DNA of 39,375 nucleotides from Chitinophagaceae bacterium (lineage in GTDB: Bacteria > Bacteroidota > Bacteroidia > Chitinophagales > Chitinophagaceae), in contig SEAD01000097.1 of NCBI GenBank assembly GCA_004173355.1, forward strand, positions 1-39,375, read 5' to 3'. How positions within the stretch are numbered: the first letter of the stretch is position 1; the number at the start of each line of letters is the position of its first letter. Positions 2,338-26,691 of this stretch are shown here, piece after piece. The position numbers were made by a program, and so were the translations under genes. The notes under the pieces are model-generated. The model was not told where the DNA came from and did not search any database. It saw nothing but the letters and a program-made list of their open reading frames with translations.

Positions 2338-2949
2338 TTAATCCATTAAGATTAAATGTACCCAGCTTCTCACCGCGTGCATTGTAATTCACTATGTCTC
2401 TTCCGTCCACGTCTTTGAAAACTATTAGATTATTTAAAACAGAGGTATAGGGGCTAAAATCATAATATTTTTCAGCAAAGTCATCGACATGATGCCAACG
2501 TCCTAACTGATTATCATACATTCTGGCTCCATAGTCAGTCCAGTCCAGGCCCTTCGCGTCGGAGAATTCTTTGGATTGCTGTTCCTTTCTATTGTATTTC
2601 AGCCGATTCGGCGATTTTCCTGTCATCGATGACGAGCTAATCCCTGCCATCGTAAGCCCAAATGGATAATAATGCGTCTCCTCCACAATCGCACCAGGTT
2701 TATGGATCACCTGCAGGTTGTCAAAGTAGACATCAAAATTGCTTTCATTGCTTACATACACGAACAGGTAGCCGTTTTTAGCCACCGCCACATTCTGTAT
2801 ATTCAGCAGTGCCTCATCCACAACCCAGTGATCTTTTAACGACCCAGATCCGCCTACTCGGCTGAAGTTGCCCGATACAAACTTAAACTGATCGTCTAGC
2901 AAGATATAATTTATATAGGCCTTGGGAACCGTCGTCGTGCTTTCCTGTT
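2318..2949 (-). pseudogene. RHS repeat-associated core fragment, 5' truncated
   Basis: This fragment encodes the conserved end of an RHS/YD-repeat protein: VPKAYINYILLDDQFKFVSG, the YYPFGLTMAG box, LKYNRKEQQ, and the core signature LDWTDYGARMYDNQLGRWH followed by DVDGRDI where the variable tip begins. Full RHS proteins are well over 1000 residues. Here the shell-forming repeats are absent, no ATG is available (the first start-like codon is TTG at 2902), and the upstream sequence runs straight into the 3' end of a recombinase gene in another frame. The fragment therefore looks like the residue of a deletion or recombination. Its end overlaps the zincin domain in a different frame. Confidence 0.85.
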
Positions 2950-4117
2950 CAATAATTTTGCATAGTGCTGTGTTTGCTTCAGCGTACTATGGCCGAGCAT
3001 TTTGCTTACGGTTTTAATCGGCACGTTGTTGTTCAGCGTTACACTTGTAGCGAATGTGTGCCGGGCTGTATGAAATGAAAGCGTTTTGTCAATTCCACAA
3101 ACATCCGCAATCTCCTTTAAGTAACCGTTCGTTTTCTGGTTACTCAACACCGGAAGTACCCAACCTTTCGGATCATTCTTTGGAAAAACTAACATTTTTC
3201 GCCAGGATTCTTGTGGCGGTCGGAAGTAAAGGAACAGGTGACGGACTACCTGTCTTTTGCCGGTCTATGAATAACCACTTCTCTCCATCAAAGCCTGCTC
3301 TTATTTCAGAGGACTTCAATTTCAATACATTTGCATAAGCCAGCCCAGTAAAACAACTGAAAACAAAAATATCACGCACCTGACTCAGCCTGACGTTTCC
3401 GAAATCCTTTGCCGCTATATGATCAACCTCCTCCATCATCAGGAAATCCTTGGTTACTTTCCGCCGGGTGAGTTTGTAACCTCCGAAAGGATCTTTCTCC
3501 AAATCCCCCCGGTGGATGGCAAGAGTTGTAATCTTTTTTAAATCGCCCAAATATTTCATGGCGGTGTTGTGATCACAGATATCCAATTTGAGGTAATACT
3601 CGAAGTCTTGGACAAACGCGTAGTTAACTTCTCGCAGTGCACAATCACTCTTTTGCTTGTATTTAACAAGGAATTCCCGAACATGTCGTTTGGTAGTTTC
3701 AAAATGGGTGTGCGTCCCTTTCGCATACTCACCCCGTGAAACTAATGCCAGTAATCGATCATTGTGTTCGGTAAAGACGAACAATAAAGTTTTGGATTTT
3801 TCCAGATCCTTGCCGGTTAACTTTGAACGCAGTTCTTCAATGGAAAAGGATCCGTAGCGCTGTAACAATTCTTGTTCAGCCTCCCGGACCTTCAATGACC
3901 AAGTATCTAAGTAAGCATTAATAGCTCGGGCATCTTCTTTTGTGCCAGATACTTTACCAGCCCGCTGGTTCCAACGCGGTAATTCAATCATCCGGCCGGT
4001 TGATAATTCGAATCGTTTGCCCATGAGGGTGATGCGCATGTGAATGGCCTGGGGTTGGGCAATGCGCGATGCCTTTTGTTTTAATCGAAATTGGATGGAT
4101 ACACGTTGCTGTAACAT
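2911..4117 (-). pseudogene. Tyrosine recombinase (phage integrase family), frameshifted
   Basis: A Bacteroidota-type site-specific recombinase of about 400 residues. The N-terminal arm-binding and SAM-like domains and the first part of the catalytic domain (CFTGLAYANVLKL) are in the frame starting at ATG 4117. The rest (WVLPVLSNQKTNGYLKEI, the HTARHTFAT box with His and Arg, MLGHSTLKQTQHYAK with the nucleophile Tyr) is in another frame. The switch lies at 3185-3199, where runs of five T and five A occur, so a homopolymer indel is likely. The last dozen codons are foreign: they read RHS-derived DNA out of frame to the stop at 2911. The gene reads away from the tRNA-Ser at 4372, the standard layout of an element integrated at a tRNA 3' end. 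Confidence 0.88.
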
Positions 4118-4217
4118 GTTGTTGCTTTTTAAACGGTGATAAATTTAAATTCACCAGCAACCCGAAGGAGCACCTGTCCAAATTTTGAAATGGTTGAACC
4201 TGTGCATTTTATAAAGG

Positions 4218-4298
4218 AAAAGGGACTAAAAACTTACGGACTACTTCTAGTCCCTTTTTAGTCCCTTTTATTTGGACCAATTTGACCAGGTTTGACCA
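4218..4298. repeat. Short direct and inverted repeats between recombinase and tRNA (candidate arm-type sites)
   Basis: TAGTCCCTTTT occurs twice in perfect tandem (4248-4258, 4259-4269) and once inverted as AAAAGGGACTA (4218-4228). Immediately after come three 10-bp-spaced copies of TTTGACCA or TTTGGACCA (4271, 4281, 4291). The cluster lies between the recombinase start (4117) and the tRNA 3' end (4372), where arm-type binding sites of integrases usually lie. The function is inferred from position. Confidence 0.6.
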
Positions 4299-4309
4299 CC
4301 CCCAAAACG

Positions 4310-4341
4310 AAAAAAGCCTGTAAATACAAAGATTTACAGGC
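4310..4341 (-). terminator. Rho-independent terminator after tRNA-Ser
   Basis: Perfect 10-bp stem GCCTGTAAAT/ATTTACAGGC with a 6-base loop (4316-4341). On the minus strand it is followed by a T run (A run at 4310-4315 on +). It lies 31 bp downstream of the tRNA 3' end. Confidence 0.85.
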
Positions 4342-4371
4342 TGTATCGACATCTATAAGGATGTACTGATG

Positions 4372-4460
4372 CGGTGAGGAAGGGATTCGAACCCTTGGTA
4401 CAGTTTAACCCGTACGGCAGTTTAGCAAACTACTGATTTCAGCCACTCATCCACCTCACC
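4372..4460 (-). tRNA. tRNA-Ser (anticodon GCU)
   Basis: On the minus strand the acceptor arms are GGTGAGG and CCTCACC, with a G discriminator at 4372. The anticodon loop is TTGCTAA within stem GTAGT/ACTGC, giving anticodon GCT. There is a long variable arm typical of class II serine tRNAs, and a T-arm containing GGTTCGAATCC. The CCA end is not encoded. The 3' half faces the recombinase at 4117, so this tRNA is the likely attachment site of the island to its left. I did not find a second copy of the tRNA 3' end between 1 and 4300, so the other attachment site is outside the window or lost. Confidence 0.95.
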
Positions 4461-4533
4461 GTTGGCTGTGATTAAAGGGTGGCAAAAATAACGAGAACAT
4501 ATTAATAAACCCAAAAAAACACGATCTAAACCT

Positions 4534-4568
4534 AAAAAAAACAGGCTCCCGGAAATCCGGAAGCCTGT
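4534..4568 (-). terminator. Rho-independent terminator of dnaA
   Basis: Near-perfect stem ACAGGCTcCCGG/CCGGaAGCCTGT with loop AAAT (4541-4568). It is followed on the minus strand by a run of seven T or more (A run 4534-4540), 28 bp past the dnaA stop. Confidence 0.85.
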
Positions 4569-4596
4569 CAAATATTTAAAGGGAAAAATTACAATC

Positions 4597-6030
4597 CTAC
4601 ATCGCAGCCAGCTGCACTTTCTGCTGCAGTTCCAGCACGTTCTCGCGGAAAATCGTATCCGTATCCATCAGGTCCTTCACCGTCTGGCAGGAATGGATCA
4701 CCGTGGTATGGTCCCGGCCCCCGAAATGCTCGCCTATCGTCTTGAGTGAATTTTTGGTAAACACCTTGGCGAGATACATGGTGATCTGCCTTGCCTGCAC
4801 GATTTCCCTCTTCCTCGTTTTCTGGAGGAGCTTGTCGTAAGACACGTCGAAGAACTCACAAACCATCCGCTGGATAGTGTCAATAGTGATCTCCTTGCTT
4901 GCTGATTTTACAAAATTACGTAACACTTTCTTTGCTAGGTCTAGGTCAATTTCCCTACGGTTAAGCGAAGATTGTGCCAACAGTGAAATCAGTGCCCCTT
5001 CGAGCTCACGGACGTTACTATTGATGTTATAAGCAATGTACTTGACTACTTCCTTCGGCATCTCCAGCCCGTCATTCTTCATCTTCTTCTCCAGGATCTC
5101 GATCCTGACCTCATAGTCAGGGATCTGCAAGTCAGCACTCAGCCCCCAGCGGAACCGGCTGAGCAGGCGCTCCTGCACACCATCCAGGTCCTTCGGACTC
5201 TTGTCCGAGGTCAGGATTAGCTGCTTATGACTCTGGTGCAGATGGTTGAAAATGGCAAAAAACGCGTCCTGGCTCTTTTCCGCCTTGGCGAAAAACTGCA
5301 CATCATCAATAATCAGGACGTCTATCAGCTGGTAAAAATGGATGAAATCATTGATCGCATTGTTCCGGCTGTGGTCCATAAACTGGTTGATGAACTTCTC
5401 GGAACTGACATATAATACCACCTTGTTCGGGTGAAGGCGCTTTACCTCATTCCCAATCGACTGCGCCAAGTGGGTCTTGCCCAGCCCTACACCACCATAA
5501 ATAACAAGGGGATTGAAGGAGTTTGCACCTGGCTTCTCCGCAACGGTCTTACCCGCCCTGCGCGCCACACGGTTACAATCACCCTCCACAAAAGCATCAA
5601 AAGTATAAATGTGATTAAGCTGCGGGTCGATCTGCATCTTCTTCAGACCCGGTATAACAAACGGATTCTTGACAGGGTTATTTATGACCAGCGGAAAATC
5701 CATTTCATTATTTGAAAATGTTTTGAATCCCTGACCGGTCACATCCATCGTCAATGGCTTGTTCTTGCTGTTGCCACTGTCCACCATGATCCGGTACTCC
5801 AGACGCGCATCCTTACCAAGCTCACGCTTGAGCGTCTTCGCTAATAAATTTACGTAATGTTCCTCCAAATACTCGAAAAAGAATTGGCTCGGCACCTGGA
5901 TGACCAGGATGTTACTTTTTATTGAAACAGGAGTAATCGGTTCAAACCAGGTTTTGTAATGCTGCCATTCAACAATGTCCTTGATGATCTTTAAACAATT
6001 AGCCCAGACTTTTTCAGCATTTTTCTCCAT
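4597..6030 (-). CDS. dnaA: Chromosomal replication initiator protein DnaA
   Basis: A 477-residue AAA+ initiator that binds DnaA boxes at oriC and opens the DNA for loading of the replicative helicase. Domain I is at about residues 1-85 (VWANCLKIIKDIVEWQHYKT). A linker leads to the AAA+ core with Walker A GGVGLGKT at 179-186 and Walker B VLIIDD at 238-243. The C-terminal helix-turn-helix ends with the DnaA signature GGRDHTTVIHS near residue 450. Length and domain order are normal. The ATG at 6030 is preceded by no Shine-Dalgarno sequence, as usual in Bacteroidota. The gene stands alone: dnaN, recF and gyrB are not adjacent. Transcription ends at the hairpin at 4541-4568. Confidence 0.98.
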   Translation of the reverse strand: MEKNAEKVWANCLKIIKDIVEWQHYKTWFEPITPVSIKSNILVIQVPSQFFFEYLEEHYVNLLAKTLKRELGKDARLEYRIMVDSGNSKNKPLTMDVTGQGFKTFSNNEMDFPLVINNPVKNPFVIPGLKKMQIDPQLNHIYTFDAFVEGDCNRVARRAGKTVAEKPGANSFNPLVIYGGVGLGKTHLAQSIGNEVKRLHPNKVVLYVSSEKFINQFMDHSRNNAINDFIHFYQLIDVLIIDDVQFFAKAEKSQDAFFAIFNHLHQSHKQLILTSDKSPKDLDGVQERLLSRFRWGLSADLQIPDYEVRIEILEKKMKNDGLEMPKEVVKYIAYNINSNVRELEGALISLLAQSSLNRREIDLDLAKKVLRNFVKSASKEITIDTIQRMVCEFFDVSYDKLLQKTRKREIVQARQITMYLAKVFTKNSLKTIGEHFGGRDHTTVIHSCQTVKDLMDTDTIFRENVLELQQKVQLAAM

Positions 6031-6477: not shown

Positions 6478-6480
6478 TTG
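6473..6480 (+). promoter_or_regulatory. -7 promoter element of the FAD dehydrogenase gene
   Basis: TATTTTTG matches the Bacteroidota -7 consensus TAnnTTTG. It overlaps a possible TTG start at 6478, so translation must begin downstream, at ATG 6520. Confidence 0.65.
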
Positions 6481-6519
6481 CGGCCTGAACTGTTTCAGGA
6501 TAAAAACCTGCCCAGGCAA

Positions 6520-8094
6520 ATGCAAAAGAATATAACTCTCAAACTGCTTCCTTCGGAAGCCACCAATGATCGTTCCGTACGTAAGGCAATCGCCGCTGCT
6601 GAAGCCACCAGCACAGCTTCCATCACGGGTTACAATATAATCAAACACAGTATCGACGCGCGTTCCAGGCAGGTATGGATCAGCCTTACCGTCAATGCCT
6701 ATATCGACGAACCGTTCCACGAACGGGAAAGGATTTCATTCCATTTCAGGGATGTGAGCAAATCCCCGCTGAGCGTGGTAATCGTTGGCGCCGGCCCGGC
6801 CGGCCTCTTCGCAGCCCTGCGCCTGCTCGAACTGGGTATCAGACCCATCCTGCTTGAAAGGGGTAAAGACGTCAGGGCAAGACGACGTGACCTCGCGCGG
6901 CTCAACAAGGAAGGTGAAGTAAACCCCGAAAGCAACTACTGCTTCGGCGAAGGCGGTGCAGGCACATACAGCGATGGCAAATTATACACGCGGAGTTCCA
7001 AACGCGGCGATATCAACCGCATACTGAACCTCTTCGTTTACTTCGGTGCAGAAGACAAAATACTATATGAAGCACACCCGCATATCGGCACCAATAAACT
7101 ACCACAGATCATCACCGCTATGCGCGAAAAAATCACGGACTGCGGTGGCGAATTCCTCTTCAATAAAAAAGTAGTTGACTTCACCCTTACCAACAATACC
7201 ATCACGGCAGTACATACCGCCGACGGTGACAAATACACTTCCCCCTATGTGATCCTGGCCACTGGCCATTCGGCGCGTGACATCTTCGAACTGCTGCATA
7301 AAAAAAACATCCGCATCGAGGCAAAACCTTTTGCACTCGGCGTGCGGATCGAACATCCGCAATCATTGATTGACTCGGTACAATACCACCAGCCGCAACG
7401 GGAAGATGCCCTTCCCCCGGCCTCCTACTCCCTGGTCCAGCAGGTGGAAGGCAAAGGTGTATTCTCCTTCTGTATGTGCCCGGGGGGCATCATCGCACCC
7501 GCCGCCACTTCTCCGGGCGAACTGGTGGTAAATGGCTGGAGCCCGTCAAAACGGAACAACCCCTTTGCCAACAGCGGCATGGTAGTGAGCATCGAAGAAA
7601 AAGACCTTAAAAAGTTTGAAAAAGAAGGTCCGCTGGCAGCCCTGGAATTCCAGCGCTCAGTAGAACAGAAAGCCTTTGAAGCAGGGGGTGGCAAATTCGT
7701 GGCACCGGCACAACGGATGGTCGATTTTACCAGCAACAGGGTATCGGACAGCCTGCCGGACTGCTCCTACCTGCCTGGACTGCAGTCAGCGCCGCTCAAT
7801 ACGGTACTCCCGGGCATCGTCCACCGGAGCCTGCAACTTGCTTTCCAGGAATTCGGGAAAAAAATGAAGGGGTATTTCACCAACGAAGCAATCGTGGTGG
7901 CTACGGAATCGAGGACCTCCTCGCCGGTTCGCATCCCGAGGGATCCGGTTACGCTGGAACATGTGCAGGTGAAAAATCTGTATCCCTGCGCGGAAGGGGC
8001 AGGTTATGCCGGAGGGATTGTAAGTGCCGCAATGGACGGCGAACGGGTAGTGGAAGAAATAAAAAAAAAGGCTGCGCAATTCAGCCTTTCATAG
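6520..8094 (+). CDS. FAD-dependent dehydrogenase (COG2509 type)
   Basis: A 524-residue flavoprotein of the uncharacterised NAD(P)/FAD-dependent dehydrogenase group COG2509. After about 85 residues of an N-terminal domain comes a Rossmann dinucleotide fold with VIVGAGPAGLFAALRLLE (GAGPAG at 90-95). The family block NYCFGEGGAGTYSDGKLYTR and the C-terminal FAD-contact segment GAGYAGGIVSAAMDG follow. It is probably cytosolic, since no signal peptide or membrane segment is visible. The substrate is unknown. ATG 6520 is preferred over the TTG at 6478 because the promoter element overlaps the latter. The gene is monocistronic; its last codons form one arm of a hairpin that acts as a terminator for the opposite strand. 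Confidence 0.9.
   Translation: MQKNITLKLLPSEATNDRSVRKAIAAAEATSTASITGYNIIKHSIDARSRQVWISLTVNAYIDEPFHERERISFHFRDVSKSPLSVVIVGAGPAGLFAALRLLELGIRPILLERGKDVRARRRDLARLNKEGEVNPESNYCFGEGGAGTYSDGKLYTRSSKRGDINRILNLFVYFGAEDKILYEAHPHIGTNKLPQIITAMREKITDCGGEFLFNKKVVDFTLTNNTITAVHTADGDKYTSPYVILATGHSARDIFELLHKKNIRIEAKPFALGVRIEHPQSLIDSVQYHQPQREDALPPASYSLVQQVEGKGVFSFCMCPGGIIAPAATSPGELVVNGWSPSKRNNPFANSGMVVSIEEKDLKKFEKEGPLAALEFQRSVEQKAFEAGGGKFVAPAQRMVDFTSNRVSDSLPDCSYLPGLQSAPLNTVLPGIVHRSLQLAFQEFGKKMKGYFTNEAIVVATESRTSSPVRIPRDPVTLEHVQVKNLYPCAEGAGYAGGIVSAAMDGERVVEEIKKKAAQFSLS
8061..8089 (-). terminator. Minus-strand intrinsic terminator at the far end of the repeat-rich region
   Basis: Stem AAAGGCTG/CAGCCTTT (8067-8089) with a 7-base loop. 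On the minus strand it is followed by nine T (A run 8061-8069). On the plus strand the hairpin is followed only by a few T, so it suits minus-strand transcripts, i.e. RNA coming from the LytTR/Hpt genes through 8978-8100. It overlaps the 3' end of the FAD dehydrogenase gene. Confidence 0.7.
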
Positions 8095-8099
8095 GTGTT

Positions 8100-8978
8100 G
8101 TGAATTAGTGTAAAATTAGTCTTGCGATAGTTACGGATTTAGGGTTTTACAATCAGATTTCCATCGAACTTTTTAGTAATTCTTTAGGATTGGACTGGAC
8201 TTGGATGATTTTTCGAATGTCCCCTTCAAAGGGTCAACAAATTGGATTGGATCGGTTGGTTCTTCAGGATGTTCGGACGGTGGTTCTTCAAGGGGCAAAT
8301 GGACTCTGTGGTTGTTTCATGGATCGTTTGGCTTCATTCGGTCTTCAATGCGATAATGGACTGGACGGACTTCTCAATTTGATACTGGATTTCGGACGGT
8401 TCGGTTTTTCAAAAGATCTCCTGGAGTTTCAGCGATTTCAAAGGATTGGTTTTCGGTTCTTCTTCGGACTCGCTTCACTGTGGTAGCAGCTGGCGTCTGG
8501 TGGATCGGATCTTGATTCTGGTGGCTTTCAAAGGTTTGGTTCGGTCGGTTCTTCAGTCGGTCATCGGATTCTCGTCTTTCAAAGGATTGGTCTTCGGTTT
8601 TCCACGGATGCTTCGATTCTTTCAGTTTTCAAAGGATTGGTTCTTCTTGGTTTTTTCAAAAAACCCGGATTAATTACGGGACTTGTTCAGATCTGGATTT
8701 GGCTTCTTCAATGGATTCGGATGGTGGCTTTCAAAGTCGTTGGATCTCAATTCGTCTGGTTTTTCAAAATCCGGCCCTTTAACAAAACTGGTGGCTTCAT
8801 CTTCAGGGCCCGTAGGATTTTGGATTGTTGTTGGGGTCCGTTTGGTGCTGAATCAATTCGTACCTCGCTTCAACAATACAAATGTATATCGCAGTTCAGG
8901 GGCCGTGCGGGATTTTCGGTAGTTGGTCGTTATCCTTCGGAGTTTGGGGGATCTGCTTCGGTTTTCGGTAAACCGTAC
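8100..8978. repeat. A-poor, repeat-containing non-coding region (about 880 bp)
   Basis: No gene is credible here. The plus strand is rich in G and T and poor in A: a hand count of 8521-8640 gives A18 C23 G32 T47. The 15-mer TTTCAAAGGATTGGT occurs exactly at 8436, 8577 and 8627, with variants at 8526 (TTTCAAAGGTTTGGT) and 8729 (TTTCAAAGTCGTTGG). The distances between copies are 90, 51, 50 and 102 bp, so roughly multiples of 50. Shorter words such as GGTTCTTC and GGATTGG recur throughout. The scarcity of A removes stop codons, so all plus frames look open; the proteins they would give resemble nothing. The region lies between the LytTR stop and a minus-strand terminator at 8061-8089, so it could be a long 3' UTR or an RNA gene. 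Confidence 0.75.
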
Positions 8979-9701
8979 CTACACAATACGCAGGCGCTGC
9001 AACACTTCGGCCTTGTGGGCGCGACTGATAGGAATCAGGCTGCCATTGATAACCAGGTTATTATCCTGGATATCCTTGATCTTGCTGGTGTTCACTATAA
9101 ATGAACGATGCACCTTCAGGAAGTTCGTAGGATCGAGCTTTTCCTGGATACCTTTCATAGTGGCATGGGATACCACCTTCTTGTCACCGGTCACATACCT
9201 TACATAGTCACCGATACATTCCACATACAAAATATCATCGAGCGACAAACGGATCAGCTTGCCATCCGAACGAATAAATATATCATTGCTTTTAGAAGTC
9301 ACTTCCTCCGGCACCTGCTTTACGGGCGCTGCCGGCGTCATACTTTCAGTCACCTTGCCAACCGACCGCATAAACCGGTCATAGGTCACCGGCTTCTTCA
9401 GGTAACCGGCCACTTCGTACTGGAACGCCGTAAAGGCATAGTCGGTCTTGGAAGTGGTAAGGATGATTTTGGGGGAATAGGTCAGCTGGTCCATCAGCTC
9501 AAACCCGCTGAGCTCGGGCATTTCAACATCAAGGAATACAATATCCACCACATTGGACCGGAGATACACCAGCGCCTCGGCGGGATTGCTGAACTTGCCT
9601 GCCACCTCCACCATACCTGACTTTACACAATAATTCTCCAGGATAGCCAGGGACACCTGGTCATCATCTATGAGAATACCTTTTATCAGTGATGGTTTCA
9701 T
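8979..9701 (-). CDS. LytTR-family response regulator
   Basis: A 240-residue two-domain regulator. The receiver domain (about 5-125) has the acidic pocket IDDDQ and phospho-acceptor Asp58 in FLDVEMPELSG, then TTSKTDYAF and the KKP lysine. The LytTR DNA-binding domain (about 140-240) shows IRSDGKLIRLSLDDILYVEC and FLKVHRSFIVN. It should bind direct repeats upstream of target genes when phosphorylated. ATG 9701 is chosen over a TTG at 9719 because MKPSLIKGILIDDD fits the family start. It lies 19 bp downstream of the Hpt gene and probably shares its transcript. A 6-bp stem (8959-8975) follows the stop but has no T run, so transcription may continue leftward. Confidence 0.93.
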   Translation of the reverse strand: MKPSLIKGILIDDDQVSLAILENYCVKSGMVEVAGKFSNPAEALVYLRSNVVDIVFLDVEMPELSGFELMDQLTYSPKIILTTSKTDYAFTAFQYEVAGYLKKPVTYDRFMRSVGKVTESMTPAAPVKQVPEEVTSKSNDIFIRSDGKLIRLSLDDILYVECIGDYVRYVTGDKKVVSHATMKGIQEKLDPTNFLKVHRSFIVNTSKIKDIQDNNLVINGSLIPISRAHKAEVLQRLRIV

Positions 9702-9720
9702 ACGATAGCTTATTATCAAC

Positions 9721-10104
9721 TCAGGAAGCCATGGCCTCCAGCTCCTTTAGTTTTCCCAATTCGTTTTCCACCCACGGCACTTCCACCAGCAAACGGGTGG
9801 TGACGGCAGCATAATGGGCCGACAACTCCGAAGTCTGTTTCACCTCACCGCAACGGACCTCCAGCTCACTGAGTTTTTCGTACAGGGATGTGAGTCCCAC
9901 ATACAGGAAACCCGGCTTGATCTTGTGTACCAGCCGCCTGAATTCCGCTAAATCACCTGATGTATAAAGATTACCCAGTTCGGGCAGTGCCGTAACCGTC
10001 TCCATCACAAAGGCATCAAAAACACCAACTGCGAGACGGGGGTCACCATCGTAAAATTCCTGTAGTTTGGCCAGGTCTAAATGATCTGAAAAGCGGTAAT
10101 TCAT
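9721..10104 (-). CDS. Hpt (histidine phosphotransfer) domain protein
   Basis: A 127-residue all-helical phosphotransfer protein. The phosphorylated residue is His60 in RRLVHKIKPGFLYVGL, which follows the Hpt pattern HKxKP/G. It would carry phosphate between the receiver domain of a hybrid kinase and a response regulator. It lies divergent from the hybrid kinase at 10201 and just upstream of the LytTR regulator, so the three genes form a plausible phosphorelay: kinase His, receiver Asp656, Hpt His60, LytTR Asp58. The pairing rests on gene order and domain content. Confidence 0.9.
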   Translation of the reverse strand: MNYRFSDHLDLAKLQEFYDGDPRLAVGVFDAFVMETVTALPELGNLYTSGDLAEFRRLVHKIKPGFLYVGLTSLYEKLSELEVRCGEVKQTSELSAHYAAVTTRLLVEVPWVENELGKLKELEAMAS

Positions 10105-10200: not shown

Positions 10201-12381
10201 TTGTCCAAGTTTAAATCCTTGAAAAATAATCTCCAAAACAGCCCCAGGCCTGCATTTCCCGTGTCAGGCATCATCCGCCGGATGGTCGACCAGTTCGTCT
10301 ACGGTACGCTGAATAGTAGTTATACTTTCGAGGAACGTAAATTTGCGATACGCTACAATCAGTTCTTCCTTTGCGCTATCCTGTTCTTCATGGCAGGTTT
10401 CCTGTTCAAGTTTTTCAACGGACTTTACCTGAGCTCGTTTGTCTGTCTCGGATCATTCGGACTGTCGCTTCTCAACTACTTACTGTTACACCGGAATACC
10501 TATCGCCGCCACCTTGCAAAATACAGCCTGCTGGCATTGGTCAATGTGGCTATCGTGGGACTGAGTTACGTGGAGGGATTACATTCGGGCACCTATATTT
10601 TCCTGTTCCCGTTTATCGTATGCCAGACCTTCATCCTCAACTATGATGAACAGGCGGCCTTCCGCACATCCATTATCATCTCCCTTGTGAGTATCATGAT
10701 GGTATTCACTATCAGCCCGCCGCTCAGCACACTGCAACATCTCGCTTCCGATAATTACCGCAGCATTTTTTACCTCAATTGTGTTCTCGCATTTGTAATC
10801 AGCTGCCTGTTCTCCTATATCGTTATCAAGGAAAACAAAAAGAATGAAATCGGCCTGCTGCAGGAACGACTCTTCCTCGACACCCTCTTCAACACCGCAC
10901 TGGATGCGATTTTTATCGTTGACCAGCGCACGGGACAGATCGTCAACTGCAACACCAAAGCCGTCGACCTTTTTAATTCACCGGGGAAAAACAGCCTGCT
11001 TGGTACCACCATCGACCGCTGGGTGATCTCCCAGTACAATGCCGACCCGCTGCCGGCAGAAGTAGTCGGTTACACCAAAGAGATCTGGGAAGGGGAAGTA
11101 AAATGTATCACCGGACAGGGTCTCAACTTCGTAGGCGCTATCTTCGTATCACCTTTCAGGGATGAAATCCAGCCACTGAAAAAAATCAGCATCTTCGATA
11201 TCACCGACCGGAAAAATGCCGAAGAAGCACTGATCGATGCAAAAGTAAAAGCGGAAGAGGCAGCCCTTTCAAAGGCAAGGTTCGTATCCAACATGAGCCA
11301 CGAACTCCGCACTCCACTCAACGGGATCATAGGCACCACCAATCTCCTGCTGCAGGAAAATATCCTGGCCGAACAGAAAGAACATTTTGACATCCTGAAA
11401 TATTCGTCCGAACACATGCTCGAACTGATCAACGATGTACTGGATGTAAATAAAATCGATGCAGGACGACTGGAAATCGAAAAGAAACCAAATAACCTTA
11501 AGCTATTTATCGACCGCATCGAGACGATCTTCCACAACCAGTTCCACAGCAAGAACATCGCGTTCGTGGTCAAAGTGGATCCGAAACTCGACCGCAAATT
11601 TATCTTTGACCCCACGCGGCTCGGACAGGTACTCCAGAACCTGCTCTCCAATGCACTCAAGTTTACCCACCGCGGCAGCGTAACCCTCGATATCAAATGT
11701 GTATCGGCCAGCAGTGATGCCGCCACTGTTGAATTCAGCGTCACCGACACCGGCATCGGTATCGAATCGAAAAAACTGCCGCATGTATTCGAACGGTTCT
11801 ACCAGGCCGATGTGATGACCACCCGCAAATACGGCGGCAGTGGGCTCGGCCTCTCCATCAGCAAAAAACTGATTGAGCTGTATAAAGGCGAACTCAAAGT
11901 GGAATCAGAGCTCTATAAAGGCAGTCGCTTCCATTTCATGCTCACACTGAACAGCTATGTTGAAAAAAAACCGCTGATACAGGACACCAGCCAGCAACAA
12001 CCGCTCAACAGCACTGCCCGCGTACTCATTGCCGAAGACAACCCGGTGAACATGATGATCGCCCGTCGTTTTCTCCAGAAATGGAACCTCGAAATCTTTG
12101 AGGCTACGGACGGACAAAAAGCCATCGAACTTTTTAATAAAGGACAATACGATATCCTGCTGATCGATCTTGAAATGCCGGAGAAAGACGGGTACATGGT
12201 ATTGAATGAGGTCCGCGAAAGCCATCCACACCTGCCCGTTATCGCGTTCACCGCAGCTTCCTTTGAAAATATGGGGCCACTGCTCAAGGAAAAAGGTTTT
12301 ACCGACTTTGTGCAGAAACCATTCAAGCCGGAGGAACTGCATGCCAAAATCCTGAAGTTCGTCCGCAACCCCGCCGCCTGA
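10201..12381 (+). CDS. Hybrid sensor histidine kinase with C-terminal receiver
   Basis: A 726-residue inner-membrane sensor. Six hydrophobic segments lie at about 54-70, 75-95, 106-122, 130-146, 155-173 and 188-209. A PAS domain follows (about 222-335), then a HisKA dimerisation helix with His367 in SNMSHELRTPLNG, an ATPase domain (LLSNALKFTHRG, DTGIGI, GGSGLGLSI) and a receiver with Asp656 in LLIDLEMPEKDG. The receiver should pass phosphate to an Hpt protein such as the one at 9721. The start is uncertain: TTG 10201 keeps the whole N-terminus, while the first in-frame ATG (10282) would also keep all membrane segments. The signal it senses is not evident. Confidence 0.93.
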   Translation: MSKFKSLKNNLQNSPRPAFPVSGIIRRMVDQFVYGTLNSSYTFEERKFAIRYNQFFLCAILFFMAGFLFKFFNGLYLSSFVCLGSFGLSLLNYLLLHRNTYRRHLAKYSLLALVNVAIVGLSYVEGLHSGTYIFLFPFIVCQTFILNYDEQAAFRTSIIISLVSIMMVFTISPPLSTLQHLASDNYRSIFYLNCVLAFVISCLFSYIVIKENKKNEIGLLQERLFLDTLFNTALDAIFIVDQRTGQIVNCNTKAVDLFNSPGKNSLLGTTIDRWVISQYNADPLPAEVVGYTKEIWEGEVKCITGQGLNFVGAIFVSPFRDEIQPLKKISIFDITDRKNAEEALIDAKVKAEEAALSKARFVSNMSHELRTPLNGIIGTTNLLLQENILAEQKEHFDILKYSSEHMLELINDVLDVNKIDAGRLEIEKKPNNLKLFIDRIETIFHNQFHSKNIAFVVKVDPKLDRKFIFDPTRLGQVLQNLLSNALKFTHRGSVTLDIKCVSASSDAATVEFSVTDTGIGIESKKLPHVFERFYQADVMTTRKYGGSGLGLSISKKLIELYKGELKVESELYKGSRFHFMLTLNSYVEKKPLIQDTSQQQPLNSTARVLIAEDNPVNMMIARRFLQKWNLEIFEATDGQKAIELFNKGQYDILLIDLEMPEKDGYMVLNEVRESHPHLPVIAFTAASFENMGPLLKEKGFTDFVQKPFKPEELHAKILKFVRNPAA

Positions 12382-25149: not shown

Positions 25150-26691
25150 CTAATCCCTTGTCCGGCGGCTGCCGCCTCCGCCACCGCTACGGTTTTCGGA
25201 TGGACGGGAGGGTTGGGAAGGGCGTTCCATACGGGGTTGCGACTGACGTTCCATGCGGGGTTGCGACTGGCGCTCCATACGTGGCTGCGACTGACGCTCC
25301 ATACGTGGCTGCGATTGACGCTCGGGTTGCGACTGCCTTTCCATGCGTGGCTGCGATTGACGCTCCATTCGCGGCTGTGATTGCCGCTCAGGCTGCGACT
25401 GGCGCTCCATGCGCGGTTGTGACTGCCTCTCCGGTTGCGAAGGCCGTTCAATACGCGGCTGTGTTTCATTCCGCTGCTGCGCGGGCCGGTCACTGATAAT
25501 CCGGTTTGGGCGATCATTGTTCGGGCGGTCACTGATTGTCCTGTTCGGACGGTCATTATTCGGGCGGTCACTGATAGTCCGGTTCGAACGGTCGCTATTC
25601 GGGCGGTCACTAATAGTCCGGTTTGGACGGTCACTATTCGGACGATCCCCGATAGTCCTGTTCGGACGGTCACTATTCGGGCGGTCACTGATAGTCCGGT
25701 TCGGACGATCACTATTCGGACGATCCCCGATAGTCCTGTCCGGACGGTTATTGTTATCATCCCTCCGGTCGCCGGACCTCACCCCATTTTCATTCCTCGT
25801 CCGTGTATCACGGCCATCAGCGATCCGGTTATCATTGCCCCTCACACGGCTTCCATTGTTTGCGTTCGCATTATTGGTGCCGCGGTTGCGGTCATAACGG
25901 TCGAAGTTCCTCGGGGCAATGGCATTCCTGTTTCCATTGTTATTGTTTGCATCCACACGTGGGCGATACATATTCAGGGTATTTCCGCGGTATTCCCTTC
26001 CACCGGGACGGTTGCTTTCATTAAACCGTACCGAACGGATATTGCCGGCATAACGCTGCGCTTCTGCGCGACGGGGACCGCCATTCACAAACACATTGTT
26101 CCGGTTGCCATAGTAATTATTGATGATCGTTGTATTATTGATAATCGTCGTGTTGCGTCCACGGTCAACATAGTAGTTGCGGATCCGCGGTGAATTGATG
26201 TAACGGCGTGGGGCAAAACACCAATAGTTGGACGGGGGATTGTAATTCCCGAAACCTACACTGATACTGATACCTGGAGTGATCGGCGCCCATCCATAAT
26301 AATCACCACCGGTTCTCCAGCTTACCCAGGCCGGTGACCATTCATAACCCGGCATCCACATCCAGCCATAAGAAGGATCCTGGAACCAGCGACCGTAGTG
26401 GAACGGAGCCCATCCCCAGTCGTAGTCCGATACCCAGATCCACTCGTAATCATCGGACCATACCCAGTGCCCACCTGTGCTGTACGGCTGGAAATCAGCA
26501 CCCATATTCGGCGCCCATACATACCCATACTCTGGATAATCGATCCATTGCCCGTAAGGACTCAACTCATCATAGAAGGTCTGGTAAGAAACGCTCACAC
26601 CAACACGCGGTTGGGCCTGGATCCGTGATCCGGCCGATGTCCCAAGCAATACGGCGAGGGTCAGTGAAAGCATGGTAAATAATCGTTTCAT
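25150..26691 (-). CDS. Secreted DUF6600-type protein with arginine-rich tandem repeats
   Basis: A 513-residue exported protein. A signal peptide (about 1-27, ending near RIQAQ) precedes an aromatic module of about 120 residues in which Trp/Tyr/Gly motifs recur (YGQWIDYPEYGYVWAPN, GHWVWSDDYEWIWVS, HYGRWFQDPSYGWMWMPG). I associate this with the DUF6600 family. The middle is Asn/Arg-rich. Two repeat arrays follow: about six 13-residue units of the form DRPNSDRPNRTIS, and an array of PRMERQSQ/PERQSQ units. The end is Gly/Arg-rich. The tail is strongly basic and probably disordered, so it may bind polyanions at the cell surface. Long open frames on other frames here are products of the repeats. 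Confidence 0.88.
   Translation of the reverse strand: MKRLFTMLSLTLAVLLGTSAGSRIQAQPRVGVSVSYQTFYDELSPYGQWIDYPEYGYVWAPNMGADFQPYSTGGHWVWSDDYEWIWVSDYDWGWAPFHYGRWFQDPSYGWMWMPGYEWSPAWVSWRTGGDYYGWAPITPGISISVGFGNYNPPSNYWCFAPRRYINSPRIRNYYVDRGRNTTIINNTTIINNYYGNRNNVFVNGGPRRAEAQRYAGNIRSVRFNESNRPGGREYRGNTLNMYRPRVDANNNNGNRNAIAPRNFDRYDRNRGTNNANANNGSRVRGNDNRIADGRDTRTRNENGVRSGDRRDDNNNRPDRTIGDRPNSDRPNRTISDRPNSDRPNRTIGDRPNSDRPNRTISDRPNSDRSNRTISDRPNNDRPNRTISDRPNNDRPNRIISDRPAQQRNETQPRIERPSQPERQSQPRMERQSQPERQSQPRMERQSQPRMERQSQPERQSQPRMERQSQPRMERQSQPRMERQSQPRMERPSQPSRPSENRSGGGGGSRRTRD
25205..25446 (-). repeat. 24/18-bp coding repeats (PRMERQSQ / PERQSQ)
   Basis: An array of imperfect units encoding PRMERQSQ (24 bp), interrupted by the shorter PERQSQ (18 bp), near the 3' end of the DUF6600-type gene. 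Units differ mostly at silent positions, so the array is old enough to have drifted but is conserved in protein sequence. Confidence 0.8.
25486..25750 (-). repeat. 39-bp coding repeats (DRPNSDRPNRTIS)
   Basis: About six tandem 39-bp units encode a 13-residue repeat in which Ser5 alternates with Asn and the last residue is Ser or Gly. Each unit holds two Asp-Arg-Pro-Asn half-units. It lies just before the ERQSQP array in the same protein. Confidence 0.82.

Follow-up and report, generated by a model that had tools for sequence, protein, structure and literature searches.

A proposed A/C-rich RNA gene with repeated words behind a LytTR response regulator in Chitinophagaceae

The gap downstream of the lytTR gene in our window, the 39,375-nt stretch of Chitinophagaceae DNA that we analysed (contig C277 of the draft genome G000, 5.36 Mb in 372 contigs), probably holds an RNA gene of about 815 nt on the minus strand (8064..8875), judging from its promoter box, terminator, composition and lack of a long frame, and this gene is probably under the control of the LytTR protein encoded beside it. 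For our favored reading as a whole, in which this free-standing RNA is switched by the neighboring relay and titrates an RNA-binding protein through its repeated words, we put the chances at about even; titration would most likely be what the RNA does, by analogy with known systems. The preliminary description of the region had named a separate RNA gene as the alternative to a long 3' UTR. We favor the separate gene, and do not retain the 3' UTR as the sole reading, because a TTTG box and a phased CGAA array at a fixed distance from it recur behind lytTR orthologues of other genera, and because the units in those genera are short and have terminators of their own. Some read-through from lytTR may occur as well, since no terminator precedes the RNA.

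In outline, a histidine kinase-Hpt-LytTR relay would switch on the neighboring RNA gene. LytTR would bind three or four CGAA-centered direct repeats at 21-bp steps and then activate transcription, the transcript would end at the terminator at 8090-8066, and the RNA would accumulate. Each word would be bound by an RNA-binding protein, for which an RRM-domain protein is the candidate, and a burst of the RNA would pull that protein off its mRNAs, much as CrcZ does with Hfq. The same protein may have the word-bearing leaders of a HATPase-like gene, described below, among its ordinary targets.

The hybrid histidine kinase (PAS, HisKA, HATPase_c and receiver domains by Pfam; 10201..12381 on the plus strand, from a putative start codon) is divergent from hpt-lytTR on the minus strand, which encodes a 127-aa Hpt domain protein (9721..10104; PF01627, 26.1 bits against a cut-off of 24.6) and the LytTR response regulator (8979..9719; PF00072 and PF04397). 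On the far side lies a convergent FAD-dependent oxidoreductase-like gene (6478..8094, plus strand; PF21688 and others), a neighbor outside the proposed system, and a gap of 884 bases (8095-8978) separates it from lytTR. The gap is indeed A-poor on the plus strand, as had been noted: it has T322 G233 A170 C159 overall, with A at 170 of the 884 positions, and 8521-8640 has exactly A18 C23 G32 T47.

The region had also been described as having no plausible protein, and we agree. Minus-strand frames of at least 50 aa are absent, and the longest ATG/GTG/TTG frame within the proposed RNA, when frames from 15 aa upward are scanned, is 41 aa. One could still think of an mRNA for one or several very small proteins, or of a decayed protein gene, given that the minus strand has UUG-started frames reaching 41 aa, that the plus strand has frames of 51-98 aa, and that a 12-codon frame was seen by eye before the terminator of a similar unit in the genome G020. 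We regard this as highly improbable. Besides the lack of a 50-aa frame on the minus strand, the many gaps between the window and G001, the only genome of its genus in the search, preserve no reading frame by eye, and a degraded protein gene, the case that the preliminary description had set against its own reading, was not found in the loci of related genomes that we read.

At the far end of the region, the terminator scan found the minus-strand site that had been claimed there, with 9 pairs and a T run (8066..8090), overlapping the 3' end of the convergent gene. The scan proves nothing by itself, since it returned three terminator-like sites in 2.6 kb against 2.8 in shuffles; the site is identical in G001. 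The 3' end of the RNA (8063..8136, minus strand) aligns to G001 with 74 of 74 bases identical, and 42 of these (8095-8136) are outside the coding frame of the neighbor. These identical non-coding bases before the terminator are possibly a seed or a binding site.

From 8978 down to 8090 there is no terminator-like site, and the earlier statement that none follows the LytTR stop therefore stands. This is also what one would see if the hpt-lytTR mRNA simply continued through the region as a long 3' UTR and no separate transcript were made. The stretch, which is poor in U and has more C than G and little structure, might then be a place where Rho loads. The A/C-rich composition of the minus strand points the same way, as does the folding of the window block (z 1.0, no better than shuffles). 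However, the phased array and TTTG box are conserved across genera, so that the region appears to have its own promoter, and other genera have tandem units, each with a terminator. On balance we think a 3' UTR is improbable.

The promoter box TACATTTG (8879..8886, minus strand) is kept in G001. We take it to be a Bacteroidota-type promoter box (consensus TANNTTTG), and from its position the 5' end of the RNA is presumably near 8875. A sigma-70 type scan led no further, with 6 sites against 3.2 in shuffles. The proposed LytTR operator is a CGAA repeat array (8915..8967, minus strand; 5' bases of the CGAAs at 8967, 8960, 8939 and 8918), which is also kept in G001. The last three CGAAs are at 21-bp steps, with 36 nt from the nearest one to the TTTG. 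A sample of 648 kb, about 12% of the genome, contains the [CT]CGAA triple a single time, at this locus.

We compared close lytTR orthologues, taken as best matches that covered nearly the full protein at 49% identity or more, from nine genomes (G000, G001, G003, G008, G009, G024, G026, G029 and G030); many of the compared genomes are MAGs. TTTG boxes were chosen by eye in eight spacers (G029 has another TTTG 8 bases upstream). CGAA was found 36 nt before the TTTG in six of these spacers, that of the window among them, 57 nt before it in four and 78 nt before it in six. None of 5000 shuffles had CGAA at one distance in six spacers, and leaving out G001, which gives five, again resulted in 0 of 5000. 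The repeat at -36 is absent from the G030 and G003 spacers. CGAA pairs at 21, 42 or 63 bp numbered 10 against 0.10 in shuffles (0/2000), a repeat pattern of the LytTR operator kind. In a self-match test that used no word, offset 21 came out on top among offsets 12-63 with 31 9-mer windows, the next having 12 (G000 and G001 are both counted). G024 has the operator upstream of its second RNA-like unit too.

According to PMC4847170, the repeats to which LytTR regulators bind are 9-11 nt long and spaced by 11-13 nt, and in PMC4847170 and PMC4064291 the operators of the family (YpdB, AlgR, AgrA, VirR) are, as here, direct repeats with a step of 20-24 bp. The array here differs in having three or four repeats with a CGAA core and in that the controlled gene would be an RNA gene. 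Our search of the open-licence literature found no paper on LytTR direct-repeat binding sites in Bacteroidetes, and for LytTR together with small RNAs in this group it gave two genome papers.

Scanning the examined loci for the operator gave 27 rows, with 10 located between lytTR and RNA in six genomes (including the second RNA of G024), 3 in L077, L078 and L101, and 14 elsewhere, which are probably chance. In L077 and L078, from Cytophagales-type MAGs, the operator stands directly after lytTR and before a gene that looks by eye like one for a glycosyltransferase. Most other word-bearing loci are without the array; a 21-bp CGA step is present in one or two of a further 18 upstream stretches (G216). 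Loci L064 and L065 have CGAA words at about 6882-7080, two of them 21 bp apart, before the next gene (by eye), as if LytTR controlled that gene instead of an RNA unit.

Seven of the nine close orthologues (G000, G001, G003, G024, G026, G029 and G030) are followed on the same strand by a non-coding, A/C-rich unit that contains UCC-N1-4-GAA words and has a terminator. A word-bearing RNA unit thus lies beside the response regulator, as in the CrcZ type, in the window and in six of the eight other orthologues. In G009 the unit is short and has the array and a terminator but lacks the word, and in G008, where the next frame starts about 110 nt after lytTR, there is no unit. Four further named lytTR orthologues, at 48-51% identity (L063-L066; L066 is from Gynurincola endophyticus), have no unit either. 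From TTTG to terminator, the units at the lytTR loci of other genera are 177-275 nt long. They are tandem at three loci: G030 and G003 have two consecutive units, the first without the word, and G024 has at least two with operators. The first units of L005 (G030) and L007 (G003) are alike, with an inverted repeat TGAAATCC...GGATTTCA by eye. Upstream of lytTR, Pfam recognizes an Hpt protein in the window, G026 and G003, and G024, G029, G030 and G009 have a frame of 133-141 aa in this place.

The words are enriched in these units. Seven units in five genomes of five other genera have 16 words against 3.56 in shuffles (0/1000), and none are antisense. G029 was reached through a scan for the word itself, with the remaining units then located by position; leaving it out gives 12 words against 3.02 (1/2000).

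In the window itself there are nine UCC-N1-4-GAA words on the minus strand (8189..8715, at 8715, 8636, 8608, 8586, 8468, 8445, 8323, 8269 and 8189), and over 960 nt the count is 9 on the RNA strand against 1 on the opposite strand. The repeated form in the RNA, which is A/C-rich and U-poor, is AUCC-N-GAAA. The preliminary description had pointed to three exact copies of a 15-mer and two variants. The exact copies of TTTCAAAGGATTGGT are at 8436, 8577 and 8627, and one variant is at 8526 with one mismatch; the other does not come up in a scan that allows up to three mismatches. The start-to-start steps are 90, 51 and 50. That scan gave 6 matches in the window, 4 of them in the region, against a chance mean of 1.93, and 1 of 100 shuffles reached 6. 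Not one of 500 dinucleotide shuffles had any 15-mer three times. The words are predicted to be slightly less unpaired than the rest of the RNA (0.44 against 0.52). A role as a platform for an RNA-binding protein or small RNA, which had been suggested, fits the repeated words; the partner is at the stage of candidates.

We then have to consider that the promoter is real and that the A/C-rich body is functionless low-complexity DNA growing by duplication, so that only the conserved 3' end acts. When the window is aligned to G001, the promoter and array are 79.6% identical, the 5' part 73.9% and the adjoining coding end 82.4%; the body reaches 62.8% and needs 129 gap columns. The contrast of the body with the 100% of the 3' end speaks for such a reading, as do lengths that range from about 180 to 815 nt. 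However, lytTR loci of other genera and unrelated loci have the same words, on the RNA strand and very seldom on the opposite one. We find a functionless body about as improbable as a 3' UTR. G001 has 13 words in 1100 nt, 11 of them between promoter and terminator and mostly at other places than in the window. Since the ends are fixed and the body consists of shifting repeats, a multi-site RNA fits better than a protein gene. The G001 block (L003, about 2650-3000) also has three GTCATCCTGAG...GCGAAGGA-type repeats that are absent from the window; repeats of this type are dispersed in Bacteroidota genomes. There was also a weak match in G018 (E 0.005), and comparing the window block with plasmid records gave no match.

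Similar sequence is found at other loci. A second block in the same genome (C311) has 115 8-mer positions in common with that of the window, against 33.2 in shuffles (maximum 53) and 5 on the opposite strand. It forms the roughly 830-nt leader of a gene for a 151-aa protein, which resembles a degenerate HATPase by eye and has no Pfam match. Word-bearing leaders also stand before orthologues of this protein in G001, G004 and the genus g114; by eye, we saw no words in the leaders of its homologues in C27, C685 and G030. Word leaders of about 150-830 nt before the HATPase-like ORF (L058, which is G000:C311, at 8680-9567; L143, L144, L265 and L266) are conserved across three genera or more. By eye, the ORF adjoins adenosylhomocysteinase, and in L145 (G030:C65) a distant homologue of it is beside an RRM protein gene.

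There are also free-standing units with promoter-like boxes and terminators, by eye, in G020, G059, G063, G184 (two), G216, G275 (where the box is doubtful) and G352/G376. The words that stand out over six blocks are ATCCTTTG, CTTTGAAA, ACCAATCC and AAAACCAA. Folding z over 18 blocks ranges from -2.2 to +3.3, with 17 at -1.1 or higher and G352 at -2.2. Whether the words or the rest are the more unpaired varies from block to block; in the window it is the rest. In G352 and G376 the unit (L243 1385-1775 and L245) is made of four tandem elements with the terminator last, each element having a different hairpin and then CCTATGAAA or a variant. L247 1350-1670 and L277 2190-2470 (G137 and G207) have about 12 CTATGAAAAAC-type repeats, each with an ATG, after which come a terminator-like hairpin and then an ORF, of 116 aa in L277.

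A family-wide pattern search gave matches in 58 of 394 genomes, and its reversed control in 18 (counted from the table); the 58 is no count of RNAs because many matches sit in long open frames. For the order-wide pattern, whose gap range does not cover the window, there were matches in 7 of 396 genomes, six in the family f1 (G059, G069, G115, G162, G359 and G640) and one outside it (G554); those in G162, G359, G640 and G554 stand as pattern matches.

For the partner, we searched 59 genomes for Hfq (PF17209) and found none over the cut-off (G004 has one sub-threshold match), while 5 of 14 control genomes were positive. An Hfq RNA of the CrcZ type is therefore not expected here, and an RRM-domain protein becomes the best candidate. 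RRM_1 is over the cut-off in 48 of the 59 genomes, and three times in the window's own genome, and this is too common for its presence to point to this RNA. The leaders of two RRM genes in the same genome have no word cluster by eye.

The closest known arrangement is CbrAB-CrcZ of Pseudomonas. The crcZ RNA gene directly follows cbrB (PMC10562864), and CrcZ is a 407-nt RNA with six A-rich stretches that can bind and titrate Hfq (PMC4063720). Going by these two papers, both systems place an RNA gene just downstream of a response-regulator gene (with crcZ activated by that regulator), and both RNAs have several sites, those of CrcZ being A-rich and titrating an RNA-binding protein, as we propose here. 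The present system differs in having no Hfq over the cut-off, a LytTR protein with an Hpt relay instead of CbrB, a TTTG box instead of an RpoN promoter, the word AUCC-N-GAAA and, in some genera, tandem units. Rfam returned nothing at E<=1 for the window region, so there is no match to a described RNA family, and nothing at E<=1 for the units themselves; its below-gathering matches were in other loci only.

RsmY and RsmZ under GacA are, according to PMC4064291, multi-site RNAs that compete for a translational regulator. The likeness, extending to the CsrB type, is a multi-site RNA under a response regulator, whose control here is proposed. However, GGA is scarce here, with 0-7 per block over 18 blocks (6 in the 785-nt window block), and there is little structure, so we did not find the many GGA in hairpin loops of CsrB and RsmY.

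Small RNAs of Bacteroides offer another comparison. GibS and FopS with RbpB, to go by PMC11697453, are in the same phylum and share with our case paralogous small RNAs, an RRM protein and a sequence link to start sites. FopS is about 65-70 nt, with one single-stranded seed and a terminator, whereas the units here are 177-815 nt with repeated words. We found no paper on Chitinophagaceae sponge small RNAs, on intergenic noncoding RNAs of Chitinophaga or Bacteroidetes, or on Chitinophaga small RNAs with Rho-independent terminators in the open-licence literature. The comparison bears on a reading that we hold unlikely, but the least so among the alternatives: that this is a real LytTR-controlled RNA gene which acts by base pairing, with the words as decoys for another small RNA or as seeds for mRNAs. 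FopS acts at translation initiation regions according to PMC11697453, and the query used there to predict its targets includes TTTTTCATAG, which is complementary to CTATGAAAAA; CCTATGAAAAAC recurs in some of our blocks. However, CCTTTGAAA is the prevailing form of the word in the window, and the aligned places in G001 read CCTAAGAAA and CCTACGAAA, which breaks a fixed pairing. Furthermore, CCTATGAAA is not a start context in the window's own genome (0/316).

Mimicry of start codons was a separate idea that we set aside. In 70 CCnXTGAAA sites X is T in 44, A in 20, G in 6 and C in none, but most blocks were collected with a pattern demanding A or T, and XTGAAA overall does not avoid C (T58 A31 G10 C15). 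The start-context count for CCTATGAAA and the aligned CCTAAGAAA and CCTACGAAA of G001 weigh against it too.

Titration RNAs controlled by response regulators are already known for RsmA/CsrA and for Hfq. More broadly, and more tentatively than for the window alone, we suggest that the Chitinophagaceae, seemingly without Hfq, may have a family of phosphorelay-switched, multi-site A/C-rich RNAs that present AUCC-N-GAAA, single or in tandem beside LytTR and at further loci, and that sequester an RNA-binding protein. This would be a global post-transcriptional switch with an origin independent of the CsrA and Hfq systems. Since the operator (CGAA 36, 57 and 78 nt before TTTG), the word and the fixed neighborhood are recognizable, the partner protein and the regulon should be directly findable.

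Elsewhere in the window, an open frame on the minus strand (25150-26691) contains tandem repeats of 24-66 and 39 bp at 25210-25748, and at 3173-6030 an integrase-like gene fragment with SAM-like and arm-binding domains adjoins dnaA.
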